A DNA stretch of 64,000 bases from an uncultured Chlorobiota bacterium (GTDB taxonomy: Bacteria; Bacteroidota; Ignavibacteria; UBA10030; UBA6906). The stretch is from assembly GCA_900696645.1 (NCBI GenBank), contig CAADGV010000007.1:186001-250000 (forward strand), read 5' to 3'. A model generated the notes under the pieces. The model did no database searches. It had not been told where the DNA came from and saw nothing but the letters and a program-made list of their open reading frames with translations. The position numbers and the translations under genes are program-made. This document shows, piece by piece, positions 2-39,538 of the stretch. Position 1 is the stretch's first letter; each line of letters opens with the position of its first letter.

Positions 2-73
2 GAAGTTTCGCAATCCGTGCAGAATCCCTTCGCGCCGAGTATGCCGGGTGGCGGTCGAAGAAGAGGCCTCTAA
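2..73 (+). CDS. 3' end of an upstream gene, probably part of the same ABC export system
   Basis: An open frame enters from the left edge and ends with TAA at 71-73, one base before the ATG of the permease. Only 23 residues are visible. They include NPFAPSMPGGGRRRGL, a low-complexity Gly/Arg tail. Such tails are seen on MacA-like adaptor proteins and on partner subunits of MacB-type exporters, and the one-base spacing indicates co-transcription. The identity of the gene cannot be decided from the tail alone. Confidence 0.55.
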   Translation, partial: EVSQSVQNPFAPSMPGGGRRRGL

Positions 74-74
74 G

Positions 75-1292
75 ATGAGAATTCTTGAAACACTCCGTAT
101 TGCTCTCGATTCTTTGCTGCGTCAGAAGACTCGCGCATTGCTGACGATGCTCGGCATTATCATTGGAGTGGGGGCAGTGATATCCATGGTTGCGGTGGGG
201 CAGGGGGCGCAAGCGGCCGTGGAGTCGCAGATTGCAAGTCTCGGAACCAATGTGCTGATTATTTTCCCCGGCTCATCGATGCAAGGGGGAGTCCGGGGCG
301 GGGCTGGTACGCGCTCATCGTTGACGTTGGGTGACGTTGAAGCCATTCGTGAACAATGCCCTTCGGTTGCGCTTGTCAGTCCGAACACGAGAACGGGCCG
401 GCAACTGGTGGCAGGTAATCTCAACTGGGGCTCCTCAATACAAGGCGGGTCGCCCTCGTATTTTCAGATCCGTGATTGGCAGCTTGCAACCGGTGATTTT
501 TTCACTGAGCAGGATGAGCGCGGGGCTACAAAGGTGTGTGTGTTGGGTCAGACGGTTGTGCAACAGCTTTTTCCGGGGCAAGATCCGGTCGGGCAGATTA
601 TCCGCATCGGTAACATGCCTTTTGTTGTAACCGGAACGCTCATGCCCAAAGGCCAGAACACATGGGGACAGGATCAGGACGATATTGTTGTAGCACCGTT
701 TTCAACCGTGCAGAAGAAGATTCAGGGAATCGACCACGTGAGCAGCATTCTCGTCTCGGCAGTTTCCAAGGAGATGATTCCGGTGGCGCAGCAGGAAGTG
801 ACGACACTGCTCCGCGCCCGTCACAAAATCCAGCCGTGGGACGAGGATGATTTCACAATCCGGAACCAATCGGAGATCGCCAATGCCGCCACTGCCACGT
901 CGAGCATCATGACGATGCTGTTAGGAAGCATCGCTTCCGTTTCGCTGATTGTCGGCGGGATCGGCATCATGAATATTATGCTGGTTTCCGTAACCGAGCG
1001 GACACGGGAAATCGGCATTCGCATGTCCATCGGTGCCCGGCGACGTGACATACTCCAGCAATTTCTTATCGAAGCGATGATGTTGAGTATTGCCGGCGGA
1101 CTTATTGGTATCGGGCTCGGGCTTGCAAGCTCGAATCTGATTTCAAAATTTGCCGGCTGGCCCATCTTTGTCTCGCCCGATGCAGTCGGATTGGCATTTC
1201 TCTTCTCGGCATTTGTCGGTATCTTCTTCGGCTACTATCCGGCGCGCAAAGCCGCTCAACTCAGCCCGATTGATGCCTTGAGGTATGAGTGA
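75..1292 (+). CDS. ABC transporter permease, MacB/FtsX type
   Basis: This 405-residue inner-membrane protein has the layout of stand-alone MacB permeases. One N-terminal membrane helix (about residues 19-40, [20 protein letters not shown]) is followed by a periplasmic MacB_PCD domain of about 210 residues and three C-terminal helices. The C-terminal FtsX region shows the family signature [24 protein letters not shown] 75 is preferred over GTG 48, because the GTG lies inside the upstream gene and residues before [11 protein letters not shown] do not match the family start. It would work with a separate ATPase and a periplasmic adaptor encoded to the left. Substrate unknown: these systems export macrolides, lipoproteins or peptides. 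Its stop overlaps the GTG start of uvrB. Confidence 0.88.
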
Positions 1293-3331: not shown

Positions 3332-3359
3332 TCATCTCAAACCTCACACAGGATTTGCC

Positions 3360-4103
3360 ATGCTTGAGGTCCGTTCTTCACCTCTTTCAACAACCCTCCG
3401 TGCATTCTACGAATTCATCTATCCCCCTGCGTGCCTTGGATGCGAAGAGTATCTTGGCGAAAGTACTGATCGGATTTGCGACACATGCTTTCAGAAGATT
3501 AAGCCGATCACACACGATGATCCGCTTTTCAAAGAAATGCGCGAACGACTTGTCTCGGGCGGACAGATCGATGGCCTGATTTCCGCGTTTCACTTTGAGA
3601 AAGACGGCACGCTCCAATCACTAATCCATCACCTGAAGTATGAAGAGATGACGCGGGCGGGCTTCGAGTTGGGAAAGAAGATTGGCGTGATGATCTCTGC
3701 TTTTGGCGGGGATCTCTCTACTGCGAGTCTCGTCCCGGTTCCTCTTCATCCTTCAAAGAGAAGAGAGCGGGGATATAACCAGAGCGTGTACGTCGCCATG
3801 GGAATGCGTTCCGTTACGGAGTTGGCTGTGCTCGCAAAGCTGCTGCATAGAAAAAGAAACACGAGAAGCCAGACTACGCTGAACATCGAAGAACGTCGAA
3901 ATAATGTCCGCTCTGCGTTTGAAGTAAACTCTCGCTATGCTGCATCCGTTGCAGGTTCCTCCTTCATTCTTGTCGACGATGTTATCACTACGGGCGCGAC
4001 GATTCAGGAGTGTGCCCGGATACTCAAGGAGCATGGGGCCAAGTCAGTGTTCGCTGCATCAGTTGCTCTCGCCGATCACGGAACTTTGAAAGACACTGTT
4101 TGA
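3360..4103 (+). CDS. ComF family phosphoribosyltransferase-like protein
   Basis: A 247-residue protein with the two hallmarks of ComF/GntX proteins. Near the N-terminus is a zinc-ribbon (CLGCEEYLGE...ICDTC, about residues 23-41). A C-terminal type I phosphoribosyltransferase fold carries the PRPP loop FILVDDVITTGATI around residue 203. ComF proteins assist DNA uptake in competent bacteria, but homologues occur widely in non-competent species and the reaction, if any, is unknown. It lies 28 bp after uvrB and is probably co-transcribed with it, which gives a loose DNA-processing context. Confidence 0.87.
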   Translation: MLEVRSSPLSTTLRAFYEFIYPPACLGCEEYLGESTDRICDTCFQKIKPITHDDPLFKEMRERLVSGGQIDGLISAFHFEKDGTLQSLIHHLKYEEMTRAGFELGKKIGVMISAFGGDLSTASLVPVPLHPSKRRERGYNQSVYVAMGMRSVTELAVLAKLLHRKRNTRSQTTLNIEERRNNVRSAFEVNSRYAASVAGSSFILVDDVITTGATIQECARILKEHGAKSVFAASVALADHGTLKDTV

Positions 4104-4154
4104 TCAACCGGTTACGTTGTGTCCCCAATACGGAAACCCGCCTCGAAACCCCGT

Positions 4155-4183
4155 TTGACATTCAAGGCATTTCTTGGTAGATT
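4155..4183 (+). promoter_or_regulatory. Sigma-70-type promoter for gap
   Basis: TTGACA (4155-4160) and TAGATT (4178-4183) are separated by exactly 17 bases, close to the vegetative consensus. Transcription would start near 4190, leaving a leader of about 80 bases before the gap ATG at 4273, which is preceded by the ribosome site CGGAGG. Confidence 0.7.
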
Positions 4184-4269
4184 GACGTGGGTTTTTTCGC
4201 AAAACATGCTACTTTTCGCCCGATTTAGAAGAATTTTGGTTCCCCTTATTGTCTGATACTCGGAGGTAA

Positions 4270-5265
<996 letters not shown>

Positions 5266-5285
5266 TACTATTTTGGTGATGATTT

Positions 5286-5339
5286 CCCGCCTGCCTTATG
5301 GCGGGCAGGCCTGCCCCACCTATTGTGAGGCAGGCTTTT
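5286..5339 (+). terminator. Double hairpin between gap and pgk (terminator or attenuator)
   Basis: Two adjacent stems are readable: CCCGCC 5286-5291 with GGCGGG 5300-5305, and GCCTGCC 5309-5315 with GGCAGGC 5329-5335, the latter followed by TTTT. The short T run suggests partial termination, which would lower pgk relative to gap. It may also be a dispersed palindromic repeat. Confidence 0.5.
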
Positions 5340-5376
5340 GTGTCTCTATGTGATCCCTCAATGGAGAAAATGACAA

Positions 5377-6573
5377 ATGACAACGAAGACAATCGATGAT
5401 GTCGATCTGAAAGGCAAACGCGTACTCGTACGGGTCGACTTCAACGTTCCGATGACGGACGACATGAAGATCTCGGATGATAAGAGAATTGTGGAATCGC
5501 TTCCCACAATCAGAAAGATCCTGGATTCAGGAGGCATTCCGATTCTCATGAGCCACCTCGGCAGGCCAAAGGGCGCCCCCAATCCCGAGTTTTCATTGAA
5601 ACCTGTTGCTGACCATCTTGCAACATTGCTCAGTACCAACGTGCAGTTTGCTGCCGATTGCATTGGCAAAGAAACAAAAAAGGTTGTGGATGGATTGAAG
5701 CAGGGAGATGTACTGTTGCTTGAGAATCTCCGCTTTCATGCCGAAGAAGAAAAAAACAATCCGGATTTCGCTAAGGAACTTGCCGCCTGGGGTGATGTGT
5801 ATGTGAACGACGCATTCGGTACGGCACATCGGGCGCATGCTTCAACGGAGGGCGTGACAAAGTTTCTCAAGCCGTGTGTTGCCGGATACTTGATGAAAAA
5901 GGAGATTGAGTATCTTACGCAAGCCGTGGCAAATCCGCGCCGCCCGTACGTGGCCATTCTTGGCGGGGCGAAAATTTCCGGCAAGATCGACGTCATTCAG
6001 AACCTTCTTCCCAAAGTCGATGTGCTGGTGATTGGCGGCGGAATGGCGTTCACGTTTTTCCGTGCGCAAGAGTTGGAAGTGGGCGATTCTCTGGTCGAAC
6101 AAGAGAAGGTCCAACTGGCAAAGGAAATTCTCGAACACATCAAGGAGAAGAACCGGAGAGTGATACTTCCGATTGACTGCATTATCGCCGATAAGTTCGA
6201 TAACAATGCACAGCGCAAAACCGTCCCGGTCAACAAAATACCGGCCGGTTGGCGGGGACTTGATATCGGGCCCGAGACAATCAAGCTTATCAAACTTCAA
6301 ATGAAGGGCGCGAAGACCATAATCTGGAACGGCCCGATGGGTGTCTTCGAAATGCCGAACTTCGCAAACGGTACGCTGGAAATCGCCAAGTTGCTTGCGG
6401 AGGCGACAACAAGCGGGGCAACCACAATCGTGGGCGGCGGTGATTCTGCGGCTGCGGTTGTACAAATGGGTTTTGAGTCGTCCATTTCCCACGTATCAAC
6501 CGGCGGCGGGGCTTCGCTTGAGTTTCTCGAAGGCAAACAGTTGCCCGGATTGGCTGCACTGGATACGAAATGA
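5377..6573 (+). CDS. pgk: Phosphoglycerate kinase
   Basis: Transfers phosphate from 1,3-bisphosphoglycerate to ADP. At 398 residues it has the usual length. Diagnostic stretches are KRVLVRVDFNVPM near the N-terminus, SHLGRPKG, LLLENLRFHAEEEKN, the hinge region LGGAKISGKIDVI and the nucleotide loop TIVGGGDSAAAV near residue 350. It follows gap, as is common. ATG 5377 is preceded by ATGGAGAAA, a weak ribosome site. Confidence 0.97.
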   Translation: MTTKTIDDVDLKGKRVLVRVDFNVPMTDDMKISDDKRIVESLPTIRKILDSGGIPILMSHLGRPKGAPNPEFSLKPVADHLATLLSTNVQFAADCIGKETKKVVDGLKQGDVLLLENLRFHAEEEKNNPDFAKELAAWGDVYVNDAFGTAHRAHASTEGVTKFLKPCVAGYLMKKEIEYLTQAVANPRRPYVAILGGAKISGKIDVIQNLLPKVDVLVIGGGMAFTFFRAQELEVGDSLVEQEKVQLAKEILEHIKEKNRRVILPIDCIIADKFDNNAQRKTVPVNKIPAGWRGLDIGPETIKLIKLQMKGAKTIIWNGPMGVFEMPNFANGTLEIAKLLAEATTSGATTIVGGGDSAAAVVQMGFESSISHVSTGGGASLEFLEGKQLPGLAALDTK

Positions 6574-26946: not shown

Positions 26947-29900
26947 ATGATTCTGTTCCGAAGCATAACGCATCACCTGATCCCGAAAGGCACCTTCCCC
27001 TTCCTTTTCCTCCTCTCCTTTATTCCAATTCTTGGCGCAGTCGGGCAAAGCCGCCAAATGAAATTCGACCAGATCACTGTTGAACACGGCCTGTCGAGTC
27101 TTACGCCATTTCACATCGTACAGGATCAGCAAGGTTTTCTCTGGATTGGAACGGAGGACGGTCTGAACCGGTACGACGGCTACGCGTTTGTTGTGTATCG
27201 CCCGGACCCGAAGGATTCAACAACACTCAGCAGAGGCTTGTGCAGCGGATTGGCTGTTTCGCGGGACGGAACTCTCTGGGTTGCAACCGAAACTGACATT
27301 CTCCACCGTTACGACCCGGACACTGATTCGTTTGTGCGCCACAAGGTTGTCGTGCCGCACGAAGTAAAAATCGACTACCGGCTGAGTCTCGGCCATATCA
27401 AGCCGGACGGCGATAGCACGTTATGGATTGCTACAAATGCGGGTTTGTGCAAGTTCAACACGAAGTCATTTGAAAGCCGCTTCTTCACACATTACCCGGC
27501 CGATTCAGCTACATTGAGCATGAACACACTCCGCACGCTCAGTCCGGAAGGAAATGACGTTATCTGGATTTCCTCGCCGAAAGGGCTGAACAGGTTCGAC
27601 AAGCGAAGCGAAAAGGTTCAGCGATTTCAGTTCAACGCACCACCATTCAAGCCCGGCCATAACGATGTTCACGATGTTGCGGTAGATGCCGTAGGCACAG
27701 TCTGGGCCGCAACCTTTTCAGGATTGTTGCGGCTCGACACACAGACGGGGAAGTTCATTCCCTTCAGACAGAAAACAGCAAGGGGTCCCGATCTTGGAAC
27801 AGAAGCGTTCGTCAACACGGTGTACGTTGATGACACGGGCATCGTGTGGGTAGGCGCGTTCAGGGATGGATTGTTTAGGTTTGATCCGTTCGCCGGACGA
27901 TTTGCGCAACATCTTCACGATGCGGCGAATCGCCGTTCGCTGAATGACGACAGAATTACGTGCATCTTTCAGGATCGATCGGATGTGTTGTGGGTTGGAA
28001 CATATCGCGTAGGGCTGAACAAATACGACAGGCGCCAGGATCAGTATGCACACTATCCGGCCAGCCGCGGTGTGTTTGCAGTTCGGGAGGATTCCTTCGG
28101 CGATATTTGGGTGGGGATGTTCGGCAATGGAATTCGTATCTACGAAAAGAAATCGGGGAAGATGAGAGAATTCCTGCCAAATCCTTCAAAGCCCGGAGCC
28201 TTGCGCGGGCCGGAAATCTACTCGTTTGCCGAAGATCGTTCGGGTGACATGTGGATTGCGACAAACCTCGGCGTTGAACGATACGATCATGCAACGCAAC
28301 AATTCAGGCAACATGAGTTGAATAGATTCTTACGGCGAGCCGCCACTGCTACAGTCAAGTGCCTGTTGATTGACAGCGACGGAGAGTTGTGGGCAGGTAC
28401 GTTTGCGCCAAGCCTCTTAAGGTACAACCCGAAGAGCGGAGCGATGACAGAATACAAACACAATCCCGGCAGTCCGAATTCCCTCATCGCCGGTGAAATC
28501 TGGACACTGTATCAGGATCGGGCGGGCAGAATCTGGGCCGGATCATTCAGCGGCGGCGTTTGCATGTTTGATAAGAAGGTAAACAGTTTTACTTCCTTTC
28601 AACACAACGAGGACGATCCGGCGAGTCTTCCGGTTCACGGTGTGTATGCAATCACGCAGGACGAAAGGGGATTTGTCTGGTTTGGCGGAGTCGGCGGCGG
28701 GCTGATACGATTCGATCTTGAATCGAAAAGCTACAAACAATATACGGTACGCGAAGGACTTGCGGACAATTTTGTCAAAACCGTGATTGTTGATGGAAGA
28801 GGAAATCTCTGGCTCGGCACCGACAAGGGAATTTCGATGTTCGACAAGAAGTCGGAAACATTCAAGAATCTGAAAGAGAAGGACGGCATTCTGGGCAACG
28901 TGTTTCTCTCGGGGTCGGCATTTCGAAGCGCGACAGGGATGCTGTACTTCGGCGGCGAGCGGGGTGTAACGGCGTTTCATCCCGACAGTCTTAAGCCGAA
29001 AGAATATAAACCTCCCGTGGTGTTGACGAGCTTCACAGTGTTTGAGAAACCGTTTCCGCTTGACAAATCCATCATGTTCCTGCCCGACATTGCATTGAAG
29101 CACGACGAGCATACGTTTTCATTCGAGTTCGTTGCACTCGACTATTCGCTTCCTGAAAGAAACGAATATGCGTACAAGCTTGAGGGACTTGACACCGCTT
29201 GGACCCGGGCAGGTACACGGCGTTATGCGAGCTACACACACATTCCCCCGGGTTCGTACACGTTCCGCGTACGCGGCTCGAATAGCGATGGAACCTGGAA
29301 CGAAGACGGCGCATCTGTCCGGATAGTCATTTCTCCACCTTTCTGGGATACGTGGTGGTTTAGAATTGCGGCTCTCATCTTTGTTGCCGGAGCCGGAACA
29401 GCTATCTACAACTATCGCGTGAACCGCCTGCTGGAAATCGAGCGGCTACGCGTACGGATCGCCAGCGATTTGCATGATGATATCGGCTCGTCTCTCACAA
29501 AAATCTCCCTGCAAAGCGAATTGATTCAAGAGGGATTTGAACCTGAGGAGAGGGAGAATTATCTCAGGAACATCGCCTCGATGAGCCGTGAGCTTGTTAC
29601 ATCCATGAGCGATATTGTCTGGTCAATTGATGCCCGCAACGATACAATTGAAAGTGTGCTTGATAAGATGAAGAGTTTTGCATCGAGCACACTTGCGGTA
29701 AAGGATATCGGCTTTAACTTTGCCCATTCCGGTCTCGATCTGAAGAAGAAGATTCCTGTTGATGTCCGGGAAAATCTGTACCTTATCTTCAAGGAAGCCA
29801 TCAACAACATCGCCAAACATGCAGGCGCTTCTCACGTGAACGTCGTGTTGCGGAATGATGCCGACAGCTTTTCAATGGTTGTTGTTGATGATGGAAAAGG

Positions 29901-30033
29901 ATGGGAAGGTACCGCACGCCCGAGCGGGCACGGGACAAAGAACATGAAGATGCGTGCCGAAAGGCTTGGCGGTACAATTGATTTTGTGAAGGATGAGGGG
30001 ACGCGGGTTGCTTTGAAGGTCAAGAAACTCTGA
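26947..30033 (+). CDS. Beta-propeller (Reg_prop/Y_Y_Y) sensor histidine kinase
   Basis: A 1028-residue transmembrane sensor. A signal peptide (about residues 1-35) precedes two seven-bladed propellers made of Reg_prop repeats of the form FLWIGTEDGLNRYDGY. A Y_Y_Y domain follows near 720-800 (FEFVALDYSLPERNEYAYKL), then a membrane helix near 803-822. The cytoplasmic kinase has the HisKA_3 H-box DLHDDIGSSLTKI (histidine near 842) and an HATPase_c domain (EAINNIAKHA, VDDGKGWEG, GHGTKNMKMRAERLGG). Unlike many Bacteroides hybrids it carries no fused receiver or DNA-binding domain; a NarL-type regulator follows 79 bp downstream. The ligand is probably extracellular and unknown. Confidence 0.93.
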   Translation: MILFRSITHHLIPKGTFPFLFLLSFIPILGAVGQSRQMKFDQITVEHGLSSLTPFHIVQDQQGFLWIGTEDGLNRYDGYAFVVYRPDPKDSTTLSRGLCSGLAVSRDGTLWVATETDILHRYDPDTDSFVRHKVVVPHEVKIDYRLSLGHIKPDGDSTLWIATNAGLCKFNTKSFESRFFTHYPADSATLSMNTLRTLSPEGNDVIWISSPKGLNRFDKRSEKVQRFQFNAPPFKPGHNDVHDVAVDAVGTVWAATFSGLLRLDTQTGKFIPFRQKTARGPDLGTEAFVNTVYVDDTGIVWVGAFRDGLFRFDPFAGRFAQHLHDAANRRSLNDDRITCIFQDRSDVLWVGTYRVGLNKYDRRQDQYAHYPASRGVFAVREDSFGDIWVGMFGNGIRIYEKKSGKMREFLPNPSKPGALRGPEIYSFAEDRSGDMWIATNLGVERYDHATQQFRQHELNRFLRRAATATVKCLLIDSDGELWAGTFAPSLLRYNPKSGAMTEYKHNPGSPNSLIAGEIWTLYQDRAGRIWAGSFSGGVCMFDKKVNSFTSFQHNEDDPASLPVHGVYAITQDERGFVWFGGVGGGLIRFDLESKSYKQYTVREGLADNFVKTVIVDGRGNLWLGTDKGISMFDKKSETFKNLKEKDGILGNVFLSGSAFRSATGMLYFGGERGVTAFHPDSLKPKEYKPPVVLTSFTVFEKPFPLDKSIMFLPDIALKHDEHTFSFEFVALDYSLPERNEYAYKLEGLDTAWTRAGTRRYASYTHIPPGSYTFRVRGSNSDGTWNEDGASVRIVISPPFWDTWWFRIAALIFVAGAGTAIYNYRVNRLLEIERLRVRIASDLHDDIGSSLTKISLQSELIQEGFEPEERENYLRNIASMSRELVTSMSDIVWSIDARNDTIESVLDKMKSFASSTLAVKDIGFNFAHSGLDLKKKIPVDVRENLYLIFKEAINNIAKHAGASHVNVVLRNDADSFSMVVVDDGKGWEGTARPSGHGTKNMKMRAERLGGTIDFVKDEGTRVALKVKKL

Positions 30034-30061
30034 GTTCTCTTCATATTTGCGGGCATTTTCC

Positions 30062-30106
30062 CCACATTCTCATGTAGTTATCCAACTCGTTGATTTTTCG
30101 TAGTAT
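30062..30106 (+). promoter_or_regulatory. CYACAT-N4-ATGTAG palindrome with TAGTAT hexamer (site 1)
   Basis: CCACAT-TCTC-ATGTAG lies at 30062-30077 and TAGTAT at 30101-30106, 31.5 bp from the palindrome centre. The same palindrome and spacing recur at 31786 and 36649. A transcript from this hexamer would begin at about the ATG at 30113, so it might be leaderless. Likely bound by the response regulator itself. Confidence 0.55.
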
Positions 30107-30112
30107 AGTGAC

Positions 30113-30757
30113 ATGATAACAGTTGGGATTGTCGAAGACGACAAAGACATACGAACAGGCATCCAGAAGTATCTGAGCCATCAAAAGGAATTTCTCTGCG
30201 AAGTGACGGGCGAGTCGGTTGAGGAGTTTCTCGCCAAAGCGAAGCAGGTGGAATTCCCTGAAGTGATCCTGAGTGACATCGGCCTGCCGGGCATGTCGGG
30301 CATAGACGGCATGCGTTTGATCAAAGAAGATCATCCCGAAACGGATATTATCATGCTGACTGTCTACAACGATTGGCAGAAGATTTTCGATTCGTTGCGG
30401 GCGGGCGCGTCAGGCTATCTCATCAAGAATACGCCGCTGGCGGAAATCAAAAAGGCGATTGAGACGGTACGTGCAGGCGGCTCTGTGATGTCGCCTGAAA
30501 TTGCCCGCAAGGTAATGGAACATTTCAACTCACCAGCAACTCTTCAAGCTGAAAAATCGCAGCCCGAATCCATCCTCACTCCGAAAGAAAAGGAAATCGT
30601 CATCGGGTTGGTGGATGGGTTGAGCTACAAGCTGCTTGCAGATCGGATGAATATTTCGATTGATACGATCCGGTTTCATATCAAGAACATCTACAAAAAA
30701 CTCCACGTCAACTCCAAGGCGGAAGTGATCAGCAAGTCGCTGCGCGGCGAGATTTAG
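30113..30757 (+). CDS. NarL/LuxR-type response regulator
   Basis: A 214-residue regulator. The receiver domain has the acidic pocket EDD (residues 8-10), phosphoacceptor D55 (ILSDIGLPGMSG), conserved threonine (MLTVYND) and lysine in GYLIKNTPL. The C-terminal LuxR helix-turn-helix reads LTPKEKEIVIGLVDGLSYKL and RFHIKNIYKKLHV. It is the obvious partner of the kinase upstream, whose HisKA_3 type pairs with NarL-like regulators. A shared palindrome in front of this gene and two envelope genes suggests its targets. Confidence 0.93.
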   Translation: MITVGIVEDDKDIRTGIQKYLSHQKEFLCEVTGESVEEFLAKAKQVEFPEVILSDIGLPGMSGIDGMRLIKEDHPETDIIMLTVYNDWQKIFDSLRAGASGYLIKNTPLAEIKKAIETVRAGGSVMSPEIARKVMEHFNSPATLQAEKSQPESILTPKEKEIVIGLVDGLSYKLLADRMNISIDTIRFHIKNIYKKLHVNSKAEVISKSLRGEI

Positions 30758-30785
30758 CAGGTTGCTGAAAAACTACATAGGCTTG

Positions 30786-30899
30786 CCACAGAGACACTGA
30801 GGCACGGAGAAAATAAGATGAACAACGCAGGAAGCCTAAACTATTTGATTGTCGGCAATAACTCCCAAAGAGAACTCTGTGGCTCCGTGCCTCCGTGGC
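30786..30899. repeat. Empty inverted-repeat pair of the GxxExxY-element type
   Basis: The left arm CCACAGAGACACTGAGGCAC (30786-30805, continuing GGAG) is matched in inverted order by CTCTGTGGCTCCGTGCCTCC (30875-30894, continuing GTGGC). The 65 bases between them show no GxxExxY sequence. This is probably a deletion derivative or a related 8-base-unit repeat. It ends 42 bp before the N-acetyltransferase start. Confidence 0.6.
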
Positions 30900-30941
30900 C
30901 AACGAAAATCGTTTTTTGTCATCCTGTTAGAAGGAGACGGG

Positions 30942-31727
30942 ATGGGGATTGATGTAGATGCGTACCTGCAAAGAATTAACCATAGCGGCAAACTCGACGT
31001 AGACATTGATACGCTGCGAGGACTCCATCGGTCGCATATGATGGCTGTTCCGTTTGAGAATCTTGACATTCATACCGGAGCGGAAATCCTGCTGGATGAG
31101 AGCCGGTTGTTCGAGAAGATTGTTAACCGAAAGCGGGGCGGATTCTGTTACGAATTGAACGGGCTGTTTGCGGGACTTCTCCGGGAAATCGGGTTTGATG
31201 TTACGCTTTGCTCGGCACGGGTTTTTCAGGAAGATGCGCCGGGTCCGGAATACGATCACCTGACACTGATTGTGCATCTCGATGAGCCGTGGTTGGCAGA
31301 CGTCGGGTTTGGTGATTCGTTCATCGAGCCGCTGAGAATGAACAGCGCGGCCGATCACATTCAGGACGGCATTGCCTATCGGCTCGATGGTGACGGTGAG
31401 GCTCTGACACTTTTTCGTCGGAGGCCCGCAAGCAACGATGAGCCTCAGTATATCTTCACCAACAAGCCCCGTTTGCTTTCCGAATTCTCAGGCATGTGTA
31501 AGTACCATCAATCCTCGCCGCTTTCTCATTTCACCCGCAAACGCATCTGTTCGCTTGCGACGCCGGGTGGAAGAGTCACACTAAGCGACAACAAACTCAT
31601 TGTTACCTCAAACGGCAACAGGACTGAACGTGATCTCTCCGATTCCGAGTACGTCGTCACACTGAACGAGAAGTTTGGCGTTTTGCTGAACAGATCTTTT
31701 CTTTCCTCTTCCCGCACGCTGCCATAG
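30942..31727 (+). CDS. Arylamine N-acetyltransferase
   Basis: A 261-residue enzyme that transfers acetyl groups from acetyl-CoA to arylamines and hydrazines through a Cys-His-Asp triad. C69 is in RGGFCYELNGLF, the histidine in YDHLTLIVHL and the aspartate in VGFGDSF. ATG 30942 is preceded by AAGGAG and fits the family start; the open frame upstream runs through the repeat and is not coding. Physiological substrate unknown. The gene appears monocistronic. Confidence 0.92.
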   Translation: MGIDVDAYLQRINHSGKLDVDIDTLRGLHRSHMMAVPFENLDIHTGAEILLDESRLFEKIVNRKRGGFCYELNGLFAGLLREIGFDVTLCSARVFQEDAPGPEYDHLTLIVHLDEPWLADVGFGDSFIEPLRMNSAADHIQDGIAYRLDGDGEALTLFRRRPASNDEPQYIFTNKPRLLSEFSGMCKYHQSSPLSHFTRKRICSLATPGGRVTLSDNKLIVTSNGNRTERDLSDSEYVVTLNEKFGVLLNRSFLSSSRTLP

Positions 31728-31785
31728 CATCCGCTTTCTGCGACGTTTCTTCTCAGTTCATTCTCGCTTTTGCGCCTCAAAGCTA

Positions 31786-31830
31786 CCACATTCTCATGTA
31801 GGTAGCATAGCGTATTCCTTCCCGTATCAC
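31786..31830 (+). promoter_or_regulatory. CYACAT-N4-ATGTAG palindrome with TATCAC hexamer (site 2)
   Basis: CCACAT-TCTC-ATGTAG at 31786-31801 is flanked by GCTA and GTAGC, which extend the symmetry, and TATCAC lies at 31825-31830, again 31.5 bp from the centre. The core is identical in sequence to site 1. It is upstream of the T9SS cargo gene, giving a leader of about 100 bases. Confidence 0.55.
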
Positions 31831-31937
31831 TTTTCACATTTCCTGCATTGATATGCGGTGGTTCCGACCGCTGCTGCAGGTTAGATTGAAAACATATCAT
31901 ATCACCAATCATCAACACTATTAGGAAAGGGTTCACC

Positions 31938-32999
31938 ATGAGATTAGCATCCGTTGTGGCGCTGTTTGTATTGTTCGGCTGGCTGTCGGAGAAGGCTGCC
32001 TCCCAGATTTCGATCGGGCCCGACAAGTTGCCCTCCGCGGGCGACGTGTTTATTGCACACCCGATGGACACGACAAGTGTCTTTGAGGGAACCGCCGGCG
32101 CAAACAAATCCTGGAATTTTGCGGGGCTTACCTCAAGCGCAATTCCCGAGACAATTCAATACGTCAACGCTTCGACAACTCCTTTTGCGCAACAGTTCCC
32201 GAATGCAAGTCTTGCCAGCGTTATCAATGACGGCGGCTTTGTCACGTACGCGTATTTTTCAACGGCATCAAATAAGCTGACGCTTTATGGTTCAGCGGGC
32301 GAGGAGTTTATGATTCAGTATGACGATCCGGAAATCCAGATGTCAACTCCGTTGAACTTCAACGATCAGTACAGCGATCAATTCAGCGGCGCCATGACTG
32401 GTGAAGGCTTTATTGTACGAACAGGTGGCTCGTTGAATGTCATCAACGACAGCTACGGAACGTTGGTTCTGCCCGGCGGCGCATCGATGCCTGCGGCACG
32501 TGTCAAGTTCGTACGCCAGAATTTCGATACAACATTCGTCAACGGCATTCCGCTCATGACGTCATCCTTGACCATCACGTCGTATGAGTGGTTCATTGCT
32601 TCGGCGAAGTTTCCCGTTCTGCAGATTGCCTATTACGTGCAGGTAACAAACGGCAGCACAACGAGAATCAAGAAAGTCGATTACAATCCTTTTGCGCCGA
32701 CAAGCGTTGACGAACGGAAGAAAGATGGTGTCGCCACAACGTTCAAGTTGGACCAGAACTTCCCGAATCCATTCAATCCGGCAACGACCATTGGCTTCCA
32801 GCTTCCGCAGTCGGGAAACGTCTCGCTGAAGGTGTACAACCTCCTCGGCCAGGAAGTGGCGACGTTGGTCGATGAGGAACTGAGCAGCGGTATCTATGCA
32901 ATTCCGTTTGATGCGGGTAATCTTGCAAGCGGCACGTACGTATATCGTTTGCAGGTTGGCGATGCTGTTCAGACGAAGAAGTTGACGCTTCTGAAGTAG
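31938..32999 (+). CDS. T9SS type A sorting domain protein, secreted
   Basis: A 353-residue exported protein. A Sec signal peptide (MRLASVVALFVLFGWLSEKAAS) leads into about 230 residues of beta-rich sequence with no recognised domain. The C-terminal 85 residues are a Por secretion sorting domain: LDQNFPNPFNPATTIGFQLP, VSLKVYNLLGQEVATLVDEE, GTYVYRLQVGD and the closing KKLTLLK. The last domain directs export across the outer membrane by the type IX system. A shared palindrome upstream points to control by the adjacent two-component system. ATG is preceded by AGGAAAGGG. Confidence 0.9.
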   Translation: MRLASVVALFVLFGWLSEKAASQISIGPDKLPSAGDVFIAHPMDTTSVFEGTAGANKSWNFAGLTSSAIPETIQYVNASTTPFAQQFPNASLASVINDGGFVTYAYFSTASNKLTLYGSAGEEFMIQYDDPEIQMSTPLNFNDQYSDQFSGAMTGEGFIVRTGGSLNVINDSYGTLVLPGGASMPAARVKFVRQNFDTTFVNGIPLMTSSLTITSYEWFIASAKFPVLQIAYYVQVTNGSTTRIKKVDYNPFAPTSVDERKKDGVATTFKLDQNFPNPFNPATTIGFQLPQSGNVSLKVYNLLGQEVATLVDEELSSGIYAIPFDAGNLASGTYVYRLQVGDAVQTKKLTLLK

Positions 33000-33007
33000 A
33001 TTCCGGT

Positions 33008-33032
33008 TCGGGTGCAGAACGACTGCACCCGA
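33008..33032. terminator. Perfect stem-loop after the T9SS gene
   Basis: TCGGGTGCAG (33008-33017), a 5-base loop and CTGCACCCGA (33023-33032) form a perfect 10-bp stem but without a T run. It may be a weak terminator or an mRNA-stability element between the two genes. Confidence 0.5.
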
Positions 33033-33068
33033 TCATCATCCCATTCAAACTCAAAAAGGAGACCAGTC

Positions 33069-35063
33069 GTGTACAGGTTGTTTGTGCAAGCAAGTCTGAT
33101 GGCTGTGATGTTGCTGGTGGCGGGGTGTTCCAAGAATTCCGACAGCATGGTCGATCCGGGCAACGGCGGCAACGGCGGAAATAATGGAGGTGGAACGGTT
33201 ACGGCTGAGCAACGCCGTGCCGCGGTTGATTCTGTGATTGCGTTTGCAGAGTCGCTGACAGGCTCACCGGCGCAAGACAACGTACAGATTGTCGAGTTCG
33301 CCAGACGGCTCTCAGTGGTTGAGGCCGCAGGCATAGAGGGGGGGAATGCGTGGGCTCGGTTCAAAGACGGCAAGTTGTTGCTGATCGGGGGCTTTCGCCC
33401 GACTCTCGAAGGAGAAGGCCAGCAATTGGACCGTACCGCCGGATCACCCTCAATGACAACTTATCCATCGGCGGCCGTGCCGTTTTCCTCTAATGCTGTT
33501 ACCGGCGTTCCCGATATGCCTGCCACGAATCAGATCAGAATTCTGAACTCGCTCGGCCCCGCATTCGATCCCGTAACATTCGGAGACGGGTTTACTTCAA
33601 CTGTTCAGGATTTGAAGGATTGGTTTTCGCATGATGTAGGCGGATACTTCATGCCGGGCACTGACAGGGCGGAAGTGAATGATCTGAAGGGTGCTTGGGG
33701 TGATGGCGTATTCTACATGAGTGCCCACGGTGCGAAGGGGCGGCTGCGTGACGGTTCCGGTCTGTACGGAATCTGGACTTCAACGCCCGTTACTCCCACC
33801 AATGATATTCTGTACGCTAACGATCTTGATAGCGGATACTTGTGCATCTATGCGGCTGTTCACGACCGGACGCCGATTCCCATCCCGGGTCGGGGACAGT
33901 GGGCAACGCATTACGCAATTACGCCGAAGTTCGTCCGCAAGTACATATCGTTTGCGCCGAACAGTTTCGTCTTCTTCAACGCCTGCCTGAGCGACGATGC
34001 GGACTTCAGGCAAGCCTGCATTGACAAAGGCGCGTCGTTGTATGCCGGATGGTCGAACTACGCCGACCCGACCTCGGCGCTCAAAACTGCCCGCTATCTG
34101 TACGACAGACTATTGGGAGTGAACAAGGCAATGCCGAGAGAGAATCCGCCGCAGCGTCCTTTTGAATGGGGTCTCTACTTCACCGACATGGCGGCAAAAG
34201 GTCTGGACAAGGCGAGTACGGCCGAACACGGACTTTGCGAACTGAAGATGACACAAACGAACGGCGACTTCAGCTTTCTTGCGCCGAGCATTGTCGCGGT
34301 GAGTGCTTTTCAGATGGAGAAGGAGATTCACATAGGAGGAAGATTCGGTTCCGACCCCGGCCTTGCAGTTGAGATAACGCTCGGCGGCAGGCAGTTACAG
34401 ATAAAGCGCTGGCGTCATGACAATGTCATTTGCGAAGCCCCGATGCAAGGCGCCGGCTCGGCGGGCGACCTTCAGGTGAAGATACGTGGCCGGAAGAGCA
34501 ACGTGTTCCAGATTACCGAGTGGCGCGGCGAATTCAACTACGTGCTTACCGGCCGCGGAACGCAGCGGGTTGAGGTGACACTCCAGCTCAATTTCCGCAG
34601 CAGTTTGAACAGGTACAGGCTTGAAGCCGGCAAGGCACCCGTAATCGGATCGATGAGGTTGGCAACATTGCTTGAATCTTCCGGCGCCACCTACTTTGCG
34701 AGCGGCAGCTATACAAGTCCGGGCGGCAGTTCGGAAACCTGGTCGGGCGGAGGCAGCATTGGGCTTCTTACTTTCCCCACGCAGCAAGTCGGTTTCGGCA
34801 TGCCCGGTTCGTTCATCGATCTCGCAACGGGTCATGCAGATTTGAATTTCGGATTGTCGGGCGTGACGTACACTTCCACTGTCAATAATCTCATGTTCAA
34901 TATGCCGTTGACGATCGTAATGACGGGCCTCAGATTTCAAATCGATTCACAGAATAGAATTGTCGGCGGTTCGCACACCGTCCCGCTCGGCAATCATACA
35001 GCTACATTGACATGGTCAACAATATCTCCGCTGCACCCGCCCACGTCGGATTATGCGCGGTAG
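33069..35063 (+). CDS. Large lipoprotein with possible clan CD cysteine peptidase domain and IPT/TIG domain
   Basis: A 664-residue lipoprotein. GTG 33069, with AAAAAGGAG upstream, gives a signal peptide ending in the lipobox LLVAGC, then an Asn/Gly-rich linker. The central domain contains FYMSAHGAKG (H220) and FVFFNACLSDD (C306). This His-Gly/Ala-Cys pattern at the end of hydrophobic strands resembles caspase, gingipain and CHAT peptidases, although 86 residues between the dyad members is longer than usual. An IPT/TIG-like beta-sandwich follows (SIVAVSAFQMEKEIHIGG), then about 190 residues of beta-rich tail. Peptidase activity is a hypothesis; the lipoprotein assignment is firm. Confidence 0.7.
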   Translation: MYRLFVQASLMAVMLLVAGCSKNSDSMVDPGNGGNGGNNGGGTVTAEQRRAAVDSVIAFAESLTGSPAQDNVQIVEFARRLSVVEAAGIEGGNAWARFKDGKLLLIGGFRPTLEGEGQQLDRTAGSPSMTTYPSAAVPFSSNAVTGVPDMPATNQIRILNSLGPAFDPVTFGDGFTSTVQDLKDWFSHDVGGYFMPGTDRAEVNDLKGAWGDGVFYMSAHGAKGRLRDGSGLYGIWTSTPVTPTNDILYANDLDSGYLCIYAAVHDRTPIPIPGRGQWATHYAITPKFVRKYISFAPNSFVFFNACLSDDADFRQACIDKGASLYAGWSNYADPTSALKTARYLYDRLLGVNKAMPRENPPQRPFEWGLYFTDMAAKGLDKASTAEHGLCELKMTQTNGDFSFLAPSIVAVSAFQMEKEIHIGGRFGSDPGLAVEITLGGRQLQIKRWRHDNVICEAPMQGAGSAGDLQVKIRGRKSNVFQITEWRGEFNYVLTGRGTQRVEVTLQLNFRSSLNRYRLEAGKAPVIGSMRLATLLESSGATYFASGSYTSPGGSSETWSGGGSIGLLTFPTQQVGFGMPGSFIDLATGHADLNFGLSGVTYTSTVNNLMFNMPLTIVMTGLRFQIDSQNRIVGGSHTVPLGNHTATLTWSTISPLHPPTSDYAR

Positions 35064-35102
35064 AAATCAACGAGTTCTATTCAAAGGGATAAATTTAGCG
35101 CT

Positions 35103-36590
35103 ATGAAACTCAGCATTATTCTTTTCACAAATCTCTATCTGGCAGTAGCAGGCTTTGCACAGACCGGAGGCTACTACATCAGCCGGAAAGAAATCCTGCC
35201 CGAGTACGTTGTCACGGCTGAAACATTCTCCCTCTCCCTTCCATCAAACAGAGAGGATGTGAAGGCAATCGGAATGGGAAAGACCCAAAACGCCAACGGC
35301 AAAGGCTTCAACGCTATGATGTACAATCCGGCGCTGCTTGCAAACGAACAGATTCGGTTTGAACTCCCCGGTGTTTACGCCAGTCTGCCGACGAAGTCGT
35401 TTGATGCCATCAGTTTTCTTCGGGATAATACGCATCAGTTCAAGACGGGAGAATTCATCAAATCTGTGAAGCAGGGATTGCGGGAGCTGAAAACTGCATC
35501 GAACGAACAGGAAGCGTTGGCGGCGTTGCGCAAGATTCAATCCGGCGCAAGGTTCGCCCATGAAATGCAGGAAGCATTGGGCGGTACGGATGAAAACCCG
35601 AAGACGCATGGCGTCAGCGTCATTCCGAGTCTCTCGGCACAAATCGGCAACTTCGGCGTCTCGTTGTACGGCGTTGCGCAATCGGGATTTCAGCTTGTCT
35701 CCGGCCCCTCGGTTGCGGAGTTGGCACGTGTGAAGATTCCTGACAGACTCGATCAACTGACGATCGAGGATTACATCTCGCTTGCCACAGCAGTTGAACC
35801 GCTGTTTGATGCAACGGGACAACTGAATGAAGATGCATTGCCCGTTGTGTATTCCGTTTCGTATATCGACATCGTTGGTGCAGTCGGGTACGCAATCCCT
35901 GTGTCGGATGAGTTCTGCGTTGGGGCAAACGTCAAGGTGTTGAACAGGCGCTTTTCGTCGAAGCGGGTTGCGGCCAACTATTTCGATAAGATTCTGAGTG
36001 AAGTCCGAAGCGACTTCAATACATCGATTACAGGTGTCACGCTCGACCTCGGAGCTTTATACAAGTCTCCGACGGGCACGCACGGGGGCATTTCAGTCCA
36101 GAATCTCATTCCAATGAAAACGCTGACTTCGAACATGAACGTCCGGCGTGTGCAAACGGGGATCCTCGACTACGACAGGGATCAGTTCGGAAACATCATT
36201 GTCACGAACGGCGACACGGCGTTGGTTGCAGGCGAGCAGAAAGTGCGGGTGATTGTCCCCATCGAGCTGAAATCACCTCTCGTCGTGAATGTCGGGATGA
36301 TGCACCCGCTGACGGAAAACTGGGATGTTGCGCTTGATGTTGCCGATGTTGCAGCACAGGATGATTTGTTCGAGGATTATCTTCACCGCGTCAGAATAGG
36401 AACGGAATTCCGTCTTGACGCCGTGAAAGATAAGTTGGGTATCGCGTTCCGGGCCGGGCTTGCCGAGAAGCGTCCGACATTCGGCATCGGGCTGAATCTG
36501 TTCCGCTTTCTGCAGATCGACGGCGCATTCGCGCATGATACATTCACGGACGAGAACTCCTATTTCGCGCAAGTGAAGCTCGGCTGGTAA
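35103..36590 (+). CDS. Outer-membrane beta-barrel-like protein (PorV/TraF-like)
   Basis: A 495-residue exported protein with a signal peptide (MKLSIILFTNLYLAVAGFA). The segment GMGKTQNANGKGFNAMMYNPALLA, split here by the barrel start, resembles the N-terminus of PorV/FadL-related and TraF-like outer-membrane proteins. The rest alternates polar and hydrophobic residues and ends in the aromatic-terminated strand YFAQVKLGW, typical of barrels. No exact family was recognised. It follows the lipoprotein by 39 bp and may share its transcript, which would suggest a surface complex. Confidence 0.65.
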   Translation: MKLSIILFTNLYLAVAGFAQTGGYYISRKEILPEYVVTAETFSLSLPSNREDVKAIGMGKTQNANGKGFNAMMYNPALLANEQIRFELPGVYASLPTKSFDAISFLRDNTHQFKTGEFIKSVKQGLRELKTASNEQEALAALRKIQSGARFAHEMQEALGGTDENPKTHGVSVIPSLSAQIGNFGVSLYGVAQSGFQLVSGPSVAELARVKIPDRLDQLTIEDYISLATAVEPLFDATGQLNEDALPVVYSVSYIDIVGAVGYAIPVSDEFCVGANVKVLNRRFSSKRVAANYFDKILSEVRSDFNTSITGVTLDLGALYKSPTGTHGGISVQNLIPMKTLTSNMNVRRVQTGILDYDRDQFGNIIVTNGDTALVAGEQKVRVIVPIELKSPLVVNVGMMHPLTENWDVALDVADVAAQDDLFEDYLHRVRIGTEFRLDAVKDKLGIAFRAGLAEKRPTFGIGLNLFRFLQIDGAFAHDTFTDENSYFAQVKLGW

Positions 36591-36648
36591 ACACCACACG
36601 AAGATGCAGGAAGAGAGGCAGCGGAATAGTCGTACTACGTGGTATGGC

Positions 36649-36693
36649 CTACATTGAGATGTAGTAACCGAACGAGGGCAATTGAACTATCTT
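36649..36693 (+). promoter_or_regulatory. CYACAT-N4-ATGTAG palindrome with TATCTT hexamer (site 3)
   Basis: CTACAT-TGAG-ATGTAG (36649-36664) is a perfect palindrome in its arms. TATCTT at 36688-36693 begins 31.5 bp from its centre, as at sites 1 and 2. The predicted start, near 36700, places the palindrome at about -43, a usual activator position, and leaves a 24-base leader. Confidence 0.55.
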
Positions 36694-36723: not shown

Positions 36724-37350
36724 ATGAAAAAACTTCTGATAATCTTGGCATTACTGACTGCGTCATTTTCGGCATCGCAGGCACAGGTCTCGTTTAGCGG
36801 CGGCCCGCACGGCGGATTGACATTCTCATCGTTTCCGCAAGGAGTAAAGGATTTTTACGGAATCGGGTTTGGCGGCGGCGCTCACGCAGATTTGAATATC
36901 GCCAGCTTTCTGACGACCCGGCTGAATTTTGATTACAACATGTTTCCTTCAGACAAGACGAAACTGAAGACGCAATTCAGAGTTACCGATCCGAACGGAA
37001 ATCCGACGAACGACTTCGATGTTACGGGCGGAAATGTCTCGATTATCGGAATGTCGTTGAATGGAATCGGCAAGATTCCGACGCATTCATCCGTTACTCC
37101 GTACGGCATGATCGGCTTCGGACTTCACATCCTGAACCAGAGTGAACTGAAGGTAACAGCCGGAGGAAATACCCTGCTCACCATTCCTTCTCCATCGAGT
37201 GACACGAATTTCGGAATGAACTTCGGCGCCGGTGTTGAATTCGGGCTGGGTAACAGGACGAAATTGTTTGTTGATGTGAAGTATGTGTTGATCTTCACCC
37301 AAAATGCAAATTCGTCGCATCTTCCGGTGACAGTAGGGTTTACGTTCTGA
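36724..37350 (+). CDS. Porin-family outer-membrane beta-barrel protein
   Basis: A 208-residue protein. ATG 36724 gives a classic signal peptide (MKKLLIILALLTASFSASQAQ). The mature part is glycine- and aromatic-rich with repeated GxxxG-like barrel strands (FSGGPHGGLTFSSF, GFGGGAHADLNIASF, GMNFGAGVEFGLG) and ends in a terminal phenylalanine (VTVGFTF), as expected for an eight-stranded barrel of the PorT/OMP_b-brl family. The palindrome upstream links it to the response-regulator regulon. Function unknown. Confidence 0.8.
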   Translation: MKKLLIILALLTASFSASQAQVSFSGGPHGGLTFSSFPQGVKDFYGIGFGGGAHADLNIASFLTTRLNFDYNMFPSDKTKLKTQFRVTDPNGNPTNDFDVTGGNVSIIGMSLNGIGKIPTHSSVTPYGMIGFGLHILNQSELKVTAGGNTLLTIPSPSSDTNFGMNFGAGVEFGLGNRTKLFVDVKYVLIFTQNANSSHLPVTVGFTF

Positions 37351-37438: not shown

Positions 37439-37618
37439 ATGTTCGCATTCTTCACTCTCATACCTCTCCTTCAAAGCGCAGCAGACGCTCATGCAGCGCT
37501 CAGCAAGCCGACTTCCGTCAAGGAAGAAAGCAAGCGAAATGTAGGAGAGAAGAAGAGGTTCACGAGCAGACATTTATCGAAAACACACGCAGGGAAGAAG
37601 GCGGTTGTCAAATGCTAA
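37439..37618 (+). CDS. Possible 59-residue basic peptide (doubtful)
   Basis: A short frame starting MFAFFTLIPLLQSAADAHA, which resembles a weak export signal, followed by a Lys/Arg/Ser-rich tail. It overlaps the start of the next gene by seven bases. No ribosome site and no recognised family, so it may well be chance. A GC-rich inverted repeat without a T run lies just upstream (near 37368-37394). Confidence 0.22.
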   Translation: MFAFFTLIPLLQSAADAHAALSKPTSVKEESKRNVGEKKRFTSRHLSKTHAGKKAVVKC

Positions 37619-38694
37619 GAGCAATACAACATACAGGTTCAGCAATTGTCGGCGGCGTTATCTCGTCGTTTATTTTCATCGCCATTGGCGGGCGCTTTGC
37701 AATGCATGTGCTTGCGCTCTTCACACATCAACCGCTGACGTTCAGCATCGAAGGGACAATTGCAGCATTGGTGTTTTCGACATCGATTGGCGTCATAGGT
37801 GGAATCCTGTTCAGTCTGGTCGGTCGTCATTTACCCGGCTCTCAGGCGTCGAAAGGGGGGTATTTTGGACTATTGCTTTTCATTGTTCTTATACCGATGT
37901 TGCCAGCCCCAATTCAGGAGGACGCGCTTTCGCTTGGCAGATACATTCCGCTGGCAATCACAATCTTTGGACTTCTTCTCATGGGTTTCGGTGCAACGCT
38001 TTCGTTCCTGCACCGGAAGCTCGGCAGTGTACAAATGAGCCGGCACTCACACCCGGTCACACAGAACCCGGAGCAATCCGTCATTCACTTTTCCAATAAC
38101 AATATGGAGGATTCCATGAAAGTCTCACGCACCGCTGTTGTGTGCATTGTAGCGTTTGTTCTTCTCGCGCAAGCATCTTCGTCTGCGCAACAGAAGTCTG
38201 CCGAAGACAAGAAACTGATTCAACGAGGCGAATACCTCGTTACTCTGGGTGGATGTAATGATTGTCATACACCCAAGAAAATGGGGCCGCATGGCCCGGT
38301 GCTTGATGAATCACGACTTCTCTCTGGTCAACCTGCACACGAACCAATCCCTGAAATTCCGCAGGGCGTTCTCGCTCCGGATAAGTGGATGGCAGTCACC
38401 AACGGGCACCTGGCAGCATGGGCGGGTCCTTGGGGTGTCAGCTTTGCACGTAATCTCACGCCCGATGTCGAAACAGGGCTCGGCAGCTGGACTGAGGCGA
38501 TGTTCATCAAAACGTTGCGAACGGGCAAGCAAATGGGAGAAGGCCGTCCGATTTTACCCCCAATGCCGTGGGAAAACTTCGCCAAGCTTACGGATGCAGA
38601 CTTGAAAGCCATCTTCGCATATCTCAAATCATTGCCGCCGGTTCGCAACAGCGTGCATGACCCGATTCCCCCGGCCGGGGCTGACCACAAATAA
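37612..38694 (+). CDS. Four-helix membrane protein in frame with a c-type cytochrome
   Basis: A single uninterrupted frame of 360 residues. The first 140 form about four membrane helices (SAIVGGVISSFIFIAIGGRF onward). From residue 169 (ATG 38116, with its own ribosome site GGAGG at 38107-38110) comes a signal-peptide-like helix and then a monoheme cytochrome c. The heme is attached at CNDCH, and the family blocks KMGPHGPVLDESRLLSGQP, GPWGVSFARNLTPD and RPILPPMPWENFAKLTDADL follow. Either a fusion is made, in which the signal becomes a fifth helix and the heme domain faces the periplasm, or the cytochrome (192 residues) is also translated alone. A cupredoxin-like gene follows by 4 bp. Confidence 0.78.
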   Translation: MLRAIQHTGSAIVGGVISSFIFIAIGGRFAMHVLALFTHQPLTFSIEGTIAALVFSTSIGVIGGILFSLVGRHLPGSQASKGGYFGLLLFIVLIPMLPAPIQEDALSLGRYIPLAITIFGLLLMGFGATLSFLHRKLGSVQMSRHSHPVTQNPEQSVIHFSNNNMEDSMKVSRTAVVCIVAFVLLAQASSSAQQKSAEDKKLIQRGEYLVTLGGCNDCHTPKKMGPHGPVLDESRLLSGQPAHEPIPEIPQGVLAPDKWMAVTNGHLAAWAGPWGVSFARNLTPDVETGLGSWTEAMFIKTLRTGKQMGEGRPILPPMPWENFAKLTDADLKAIFAYLKSLPPVRNSVHDPIPPAGADHK

Positions 38695-38698
38695 ACGA

Positions 38699-39538
38699 AT
38701 GATGCTTGACATGAAAGCAGGAAACATTCAGCGACGAACCACCGTTCTTTTGGCTGCAGGCGTTGCGATTACCGTCAATCTCTTTGCTGCTCAACCGTAC
38801 AAGGCGATTGTAGTGAAGGAGGGAGGGACGATTTCCGGTGTTGTTCGATTACTGGGAAAGGCGCCGAGGCTGGGCTTCGATATCACGAAAGACAACGACT
38901 GGTGCGGGACGACGAAGAAGTCGCCGCGCCTTGTGGTTGGAGAAGAAAACGGCGTTGCCAACACCGTAATTTCGATAGAGGGGATTGTCGAAGGGAAGAA
39001 GCACGTCTCCGGCGGGAAGTATGTTCTCGACCAGAGGAAATGTGAATACGTTCCGCATGCTCTGCTGCTTCCAATGGGTTCGCCGCTGGAGATTGTGAAC
39101 AGCGACGCCGTTCTTCACAACGTGCATACGTATGAAGGCAACGGGCGGACGGTTTTCAATATCGCCCAGCCGATAAAAGGTGTTCGCTTTCCCGTGAAGG
39201 CTTCACAATTTGCTGTGCCGGGTGCGTACCACGCAACTTGCGATGCGGGCCATCCCTGGATGAGTGCTTACGTAATTGCGATGGAGCATCCCTATTATGC
39301 AATTACAGATGCGAATGGGAAATTCGAACTGAAAGATGTTCCTCCCGGAACGTACAAACTCACGATGTGGCACGAGGGAGTGAATGTTGCCCGAACCGAA
39401 TGGGATGGCAAGAAAGCGAAGGCCTACTACTACGAACCTCCGTATGAGGAAATCCGGGAAGTTGTTGTTCAGCCCAATGGGAATATCTTGGTTGACTTCA
39501 TGCTGGAATTGAGACCTGCAGCAATAGTGAAGAATTAG
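38699..39538 (+). CDS. Cupredoxin-like periplasmic protein with carboxypeptidase-regulatory-like domain
   Basis: A 279-residue exported protein. Candidate type I copper ligands are H in VLHNVHTYEG and C, H and M in ATCDAGHPWMSA, the His-Cys-His-Met set of plastocyanin-like sites. The C-terminal part (YAITDANGKFELKDVPPGTYKLTMWHEG) is a carboxypeptidase-regulatory-like beta-sandwich, so the copper-like segment appears inserted between two beta-rich regions. It begins 4 bp after the cytochrome gene. The pair suggests a small periplasmic electron-transfer chain. Metal binding is inferred from spacing only. Confidence 0.72.
   Translation: MMLDMKAGNIQRRTTVLLAAGVAITVNLFAAQPYKAIVVKEGGTISGVVRLLGKAPRLGFDITKDNDWCGTTKKSPRLVVGEENGVANTVISIEGIVEGKKHVSGGKYVLDQRKCEYVPHALLLPMGSPLEIVNSDAVLHNVHTYEGNGRTVFNIAQPIKGVRFPVKASQFAVPGAYHATCDAGHPWMSAYVIAMEHPYYAITDANGKFELKDVPPGTYKLTMWHEGVNVARTEWDGKKAKAYYYEPPYEEIREVVVQPNGNILVDFMLELRPAAIVKN

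Follow-up and report, generated by a model that had tools for sequence, protein, structure and literature searches.

Judging from sequence comparison, the palindrome CYACAT-N4-ATGTAG, which recurs within a gene cluster of an uncultured Chlorobiota bacterium, very probably serves the sensor-regulator pair encoded next to it as a private docking site on the DNA. The full explanation, in which a kinase-driven regulator uses private operators to activate the gene that encodes it as well as a T9SS cargo gene and an envelope operon, and belongs to a family of such cassettes, is one that we hold with considerable confidence. The wider proposal goes further: more than 100 propeller-kinase/NarL-regulator/secreted-cargo cassettes with orthogonal private operators would occur across the lineage, and their autoregulatory promoters would disclose a physical two-residue code by which helices of the NarL/LuxR type recognize DNA, making operator and local regulon of an unstudied regulator predictable from protein sequence. 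This proposal is favoured here with less assurance.

Palindromes and genes of the cluster

In the window, by which we mean the whole 64,000-nucleotide stretch that was analysed, the initial annotation had placed the palindrome at 30062-30077, 31786-31801 and 36649-36664, ahead of a NarL-type regulator gene, a T9SS cargo gene and a porin-family gene, and had noted a hexamer beginning 31.5 bp from the centre of each copy. All three positions were found again in the sequence, on the + strand; the distance is exact for TAGTAT (30101), TATCAC (31825) and TATCTT (36688), and the identities of the genes are backed by Pfam domains. The features are listed below, with G001 and G002 denoting two congeneric genomes and G000 the genome of the window.

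26947..30033, + strand: sensor histidine kinase (Reg_prop PF07494, Y_Y_Y PF07495, HisKA_3 PF07730, HATPase_c PF02518)
30060..30079, + strand: operator 1, 20-bp frame CCCCACATTCTCATGTAGTT, upstream of the regulator gene; kept in G001 and G002
30101..30106, + strand: hexamer TAGTAT, -10/-7-like, 31.5 bp from the centre of operator 1; AAGATT in G002
30113..30757, + strand: NarL/FixJ-type response regulator (receiver PF00072, E 1.2e-20; GerE HTH PF00196, E 5.9e-14)
30942..31727, + strand: arylamine N-acetyltransferase-like gene (PF00797), between regulator and cargo only in G000 and G001
31784..31803, + strand: operator 2, 20-bp frame TACCACATTCTCATGTAGGT, upstream of the T9SS cargo gene; kept in G001 and G002
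31825..31830, + strand: hexamer TATCAC, -10/-7-like; TATCAG in G002, spacing unchanged
31938..32999, + strand: T9SS cargo protein with C-terminal sorting domain (Por_Secre_tail, PF18962), putative target gene
36647..36666, + strand: operator 3, 20-bp frame GCCTACATTGAGATGTAGTA, a perfect 6-N4-6 palindrome; kept in G001 and G002
36688..36693, + strand: hexamer TATCTT, -10/-7-like; TATCTT in G002, spacing unchanged
36724..37350, + strand: outer-membrane beta-barrel protein (PF13505), first gene 3' of operator 3
37612..38694, + strand: membrane protein fused to a cytochrome c domain (PF00034), probable operon member 3' of operator 3
38657..39538 (longest ORF), + strand: secreted protein with carboxypeptidase-regulatory-like domain (PF14686 above cut-off, PF13620 below), probable operon member

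The kinase carries every domain that defines a propeller sensor, namely Reg_prop repeats, Y_Y_Y, HisKA_3 and HATPase_c (Pfam), and the closest solved structures to the regulator are VraR, NarL and DevR. Two of the three palindromes have arms mismatched at one position (CCACAT/ATGTAG). Operator 3 heads a gene run that comprises the porin, the membrane/cytochrome c protein and the carboxypeptidase-regulatory-like protein. The acetyltransferase-like gene, which is missing from the corresponding place in G002, is probably outside the cassette proper. Between it and the regulator gene lies an inverted repeat, CACTGAGGCACGGAG / CTCCGTGCCTCCGTG, with its halves 73 nt apart (window 30795-30897). Two ORFs, one lipoprotein-like (664 aa) and one with no Pfam match (495 aa), lie in the region between operators 2 and 3 (window 33069-36590); the counterpart of this region in G001 is only ~1 kb long and has no intact counterparts of the two ORFs.

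The exact motif occurs at four physical sites in the 4,206,806-base genome (46 contigs), where ~1 match would be expected in random DNA, and three of the four are inside the 6.6-kb cluster (P = 3.6e-5 for three of four random sites within 6.6 kb). Copies with one mismatch show no excess genome-wide (25 matches vs 53 for a reversed-pattern control), and the regulon of the palindrome therefore looks small and local. The genome-wide search by motif and hexamer that had been proposed at the outset yielded no further convincing promoters for this regulator. Its match at C25:23152 was set aside because it lies in a paralogous cassette, as was the fourth exact site, C20:18438, which has no hexamer at the rule distance. 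In G000 and G002 this fourth palindrome, CCACATCATNATGTAG (- strand; L004, L090 and L088 at 1501-1516), precedes a small lipoprotein-like gene; G001 has it at the matching place too, again with no hexamer at the rule distance.

Perfect or near-perfect intergenic inverted repeats with a 4-nt loop could also be terminators, processing hairpins or mobile REP-like repeats. This is highly improbable here, because the three sites give no terminator-like match, only three or four copies occur per genome, a hexamer follows at a fixed distance, and the sequence is cassette-specific and tracks the helix of the neighbouring regulator, which is beyond any hairpin account.

The sites are conserved in related genomes. 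All three are in place in G001 (regulator 98% identical), and G002 (regulator 89% identical) has three exact sites and one one-mismatch site within 2.1 kb. The N4 spacers in G002 have changed (GCTG, CCAC, CGAG) and the flanks have drifted, with the arms kept. TATCAG, ahead of the cargo gene, and TATCTT, ahead of the third target, start exactly 23 bp past the 16-bp palindrome in that genome, and the hexamer ahead of its regulator gene has no TA start, so that spacing and hexamer are kept at two of the three sites. The porin gene is absent from the G002 locus, where the operator directly heads the remaining gene run and the cytochrome homologues are split; operators thus still stand ahead of the cargo gene and the cytochrome gene run despite the loss of the acetyltransferase and porin genes. 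The order of the carboxypeptidase-regulatory-like gene is kept in both genomes. In G027, which belongs to another family of the order (66% identity), C[CT]ACAT-N4-ATGGGG is found ahead of the regulator gene and of the next gene. Two further observations concern the congeneric loci. A one-mismatch palindrome, CTGCATGAACATGTAG, lies 39 bp upstream of the third operator of G002 (L048 11524-11578), where tandem binding with that operator is possible, and in G001 (L047, reverse complement, 12-3080 and 3092-6184) two propeller kinases of ~1,020-1,030 aa stand in tandem ahead of one regulator gene.

Promoter geometry and mode of regulation

At 83 sites, which were picked without using the flank, TANNNT starts 31.5 bp from the centre of the 20-bp palindrome, at offset 21 from its end, in 42 cases and at offsets 20-22 in 66, and any other offset accounts for 0-4 sites each. 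Because the count peaks at 31.5 bp, this spacing can be regarded as a rule of the family. In a set of 144 sites chosen partly by hexamer, the base to the right of the palindrome is G in 121, and the mirror base to the left is C in only nine; the right-hand G without its mirror C indicates that the element ATT-G, in which the G is this flanking base, is not part of the symmetry of the palindrome. In most family members ATT-G is at the -33 position, ~20 bp ahead of TANNTT, within the right end of the operator.

The Bacteroidota sigma-ABfr promoter consists of TAnnTTTG at -7 and TTTG at -33 (PMC7366714). The TANNTT hexamers fit its -7 element, and the ATT-G of the family stands where the -33 TTTG is expected; the cassettes differ from it in that the -33-like element sits inside the right arm of the operator and is absent at the three promoters of the window. 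The initial annotation had described promoters without a -35 element; this holds for the three window sites, where the -33 G is missing, and fails for most family members, which have ATT-G at -33. The missing G agrees with the accompanying idea that the three promoters are weak. By this geometry the operator would be centred near -42, as for a class II activator, whose operators are centred close to -41.5 or -42.5 and overlap the -35/-33 region. TAGTAT starts 12 nt 5' of the ATG of the regulator gene (window 30101-30115), from which a regulator mRNA with no leader or almost none is predicted; leaders of 2-10 nt are predicted in the cassettes of several relatives.

Signalling would most likely start with phosphorylation of the NarL-type regulator by the propeller kinase. 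The phosphorylated regulator would then bind the 20-bp operator as a dimer adjoining the -33 region and, acting from about -42, would recruit RNA polymerase to a weak promoter of the Bacteroidota type. The genes switched on would be that of the regulator itself, the T9SS cargo gene and the envelope operon, with its genes for the outer-membrane barrel, the cytochrome c protein and the secreted protein. With positive autoregulation and a target close by, each cassette would be a self-contained switch that amplifies itself and that its private operator would insulate from paralogues. The sequences themselves show the sites, with their geometry, conservation and privacy and their covariation with the helix; from these we infer binding, its dependence on phosphorylation, activation over repression and the transcription starts. 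The earlier suggestion that the adjacent kinase and regulator control the regulator gene itself and T9SS and envelope genes gains comparative support, in that the sites are kept in two congeneric genomes, the layout recurs in many paralogous cassettes and their operators track the helix.

Palindromic operators before the own gene are common among repressors, and in most family members the operator overlaps the -33 ATT-G, so that a bound protein could block polymerase. The regulator might thus be a repressor or dual regulator that represses its own gene and keeps the cargo gene silent until its phosphorylation state changes. We consider this improbable, because the constant 31.5-bp distance from centre to hexamer over diverged cassettes, which a repressor does not need, fits activation better, as do the three window promoters without the -33 G.

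The cassette family and known systems

A recurrent gene order was found in Ignavibacteriales-like genomes: a propeller histidine kinase comes first, then a NarL-type regulator, and in most cases a T9SS cargo gene follows. The layout is repeated in dozens of related sensor cassettes. A cassette-private 20-bp palindrome, the sequence of which differs among cassettes, often precedes both the regulator gene and the next gene, and many such palindromes recur directly behind the regulator gene, ahead of a gene with a signal-peptide-like start. Among the 175 regulators for which 300 aa or more of the upstream ORF could be seen, 173 are preceded by a kinase-like ORF, and the visible part of 131 of these ORFs has a propeller match.

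Privacy was assessed for 94 regulators by comparing the best upstream/downstream 20-mer pair of each cassette with mismatched pairs. A score of at least 26 is reached by 26 own pairs, against 2.9 expected from the mismatched ones, and one of at least 30 by nine (0.13 expected), and the own downstream region is the top of its row for 23 of the 94 regulators (~1 expected). Examples of operator pairs are AATAGAACATTTGTTCTATT twice, AACTCCCCTGATGGGGAGTT twice, and AATGACTCAAACGGGTCATT / AATGACTCACTTGAGTCATT. AATGAC-N8-GTCATT has exactly two copies in the window genome, at both expected places of one paralogous cassette. A confident site was absent for about half of the regulators analysed, and no such palindromes were found for related regulators such as L203 and L206. 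Orphan 20-bp palindromes of the AATAC type in the window genome (L319, L325, L327) precede genes for a lipoprotein, a T9SS-cargo-like protein and an outer-membrane protein; being away from any of the regulators analysed, they are possible targets in trans.

A T9SS sorting domain was detected with an HMM in 18 of 26 next genes, an enrichment that is partly circular, since 11 of the sorting domains had seeded the HMM. For this reason six further targets were checked by a separate Pfam scan, in which the domain exceeded the cut-off in five and fell below it in L129 (21.5 vs 27 bits). These targets hint at the output of the propeller sensors, namely surface proteins exported by type IX secretion.

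The closest precedent is found in the Bacteroides hybrid two-component systems (HTCS) that control polysaccharide utilization loci (PUL). They have propeller-type (COG3292) sensors, and each regulator is proposed to act on neighbouring genes by way of a motif of its own, similar regulators having similar motifs (PMC3878776). Like the cassettes, the HTCS/PUL systems form a large paralogous family in Bacteroidota with propeller sensors and adjacent genes bearing an own DNA motif. However, an HTCS combines kinase, receiver and AraC-type DNA-binding domain in one polypeptide, whereas the window has separate ORFs for the kinase and the GerE regulator. HTCS motifs are direct repeats and their targets SusCD loci, whereas the cassette operators are 20-bp palindromes and the targets are T9SS cargo and envelope genes together with the regulator's own gene. 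The control logic resembles a known one; the proteins, the symmetry of the operators and the target genes are different, and a code at the level of residues can be seen.

NarL sites are TACYYMT heptamers arranged as 7-2-7 inverted repeats. The regulators studied here share with E. coli NarL (1a04, 1je8, 8u3b) the receiver and the GerE HTH, but the arms of the window and family operators are separated by N4 (6-N4-6 frame), and NarL is a global regulator whereas these are cassette-local. Activation by LuxR occurs from a position near -42.5 that overlaps the -35 region. The LuxR lux box and DevR/DosR likewise combine a dimer of GerE-type HTH with a 20-bp palindrome that has a 4-bp core; LuxR, however, responds to acyl-homoserine lactones rather than to a kinase, and the operators of the cassettes differ between paralogues in one genome. 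In the searchable papers, which cover few subscription journals, no directly relevant description of propeller/NarL operators, Ignavibacteria two-component systems or paralogue recognition codes was found.

To our knowledge, the operators of most response regulators are not known. Each regulator of this family displays its operator at its own promoter, in many cases in two copies, with a constant distance to the -10 element, and binding sites and local regulons can therefore be read from sequence across a largely uncultured order. In the cassettes nature offers a case in which duplicated two-component systems may be kept apart through their DNA sites, and the private operators are candidate orthogonal parts for synthetic biology.

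Recognition helix and operator sequence

When 43 cassettes were sorted by operator, residue X of the helix motif T-[VI]-B-X-H was found to pair with palindrome positions 2-4, and position 6 was found to go with residue B. The residues of the NarL recognition helix to which B and X correspond in an alignment are K188 and V189, which touch bases in NarL-DNA crystals (1JE8). In the window regulator, alignment to NarL identifies them as Arg187 (30671-30673) and Phe188 (30674-30676), and this R,F pair agrees with the CYACAT arm. In L021 and L115, with 51-53% identity to the window regulator, R,N occurs with TGACAT; the first half of the arm shifts with X, and CAT is constant.

The rules from the 43 cassettes were fixed before a held-out analysis of 47 new regulators with sites, which came from 53 further genomes and extra loci and for which the tested positions were used in site calling only through palindromicity. 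N was accompanied by TGA in 24 of 28 half-sites (3 of 102 in other regulators), F or Y by C at position 2 in 28 of 28 (6 of 102), T by TAC in 20 of 38 (5 of 92) and D by G at position 6 in 26 of 26 (3 of 104), values reached in each case by none of 5000 shuffles. A was accompanied by TAG in 5 of 6 half-sites, from two regulators only. Much of the DNA sequence ahead of the genes of a regulator thus appears to be predictable from two of its residues, and the residue-operator pairs provide a recognition code that can be put to the test for a regulator family that is among the largest. The pairing of H with C at position 6, which was spotted afterwards, is seen in 10 of 10 half-sites over both sets. 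The pre-set serine rule (X = S, B = R with TCG) was dropped after 0 of 6 in the held-out set, and the pairing of B = R with A at position 6 is without phylogenetic support (0.7 vs 0.6).

Such an association could mostly reflect shared ancestry, with real operators and no direct residue-base code, because related regulators share both helix and operator and the receiver-domain tree contains few changes per residue. When independent pairs were tested with multiple states on the best tree, X gave 11.6 vs 4.4 with a median p of 0.077, so that this residue reaches only p ~0.08, but B gave 12.1 vs 1.9 (median p 0.013). Among the informative pairs on supported branches, every one for N, D, H and A runs in the predicted direction and none in the opposite one, although they are too few for significance. 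B = D accompanies G at position 6 on the T (AATACCG) and N (AATGACG) backgrounds alike, and both residues correspond to base-contacting positions of NarL. Shared ancestry as the main cause is accordingly given a small chance, and a direct code is preferred.

Regulators with H,F or R,F helices and with CTACCC- or CTACAT-type arms near the regulator gene were also seen in L199, L200, L201, L205 and L211 (Melioribacteraceae, a Saprospiraceae MAG and unplaced MAGs), and the helix-operator code may reach past the order.
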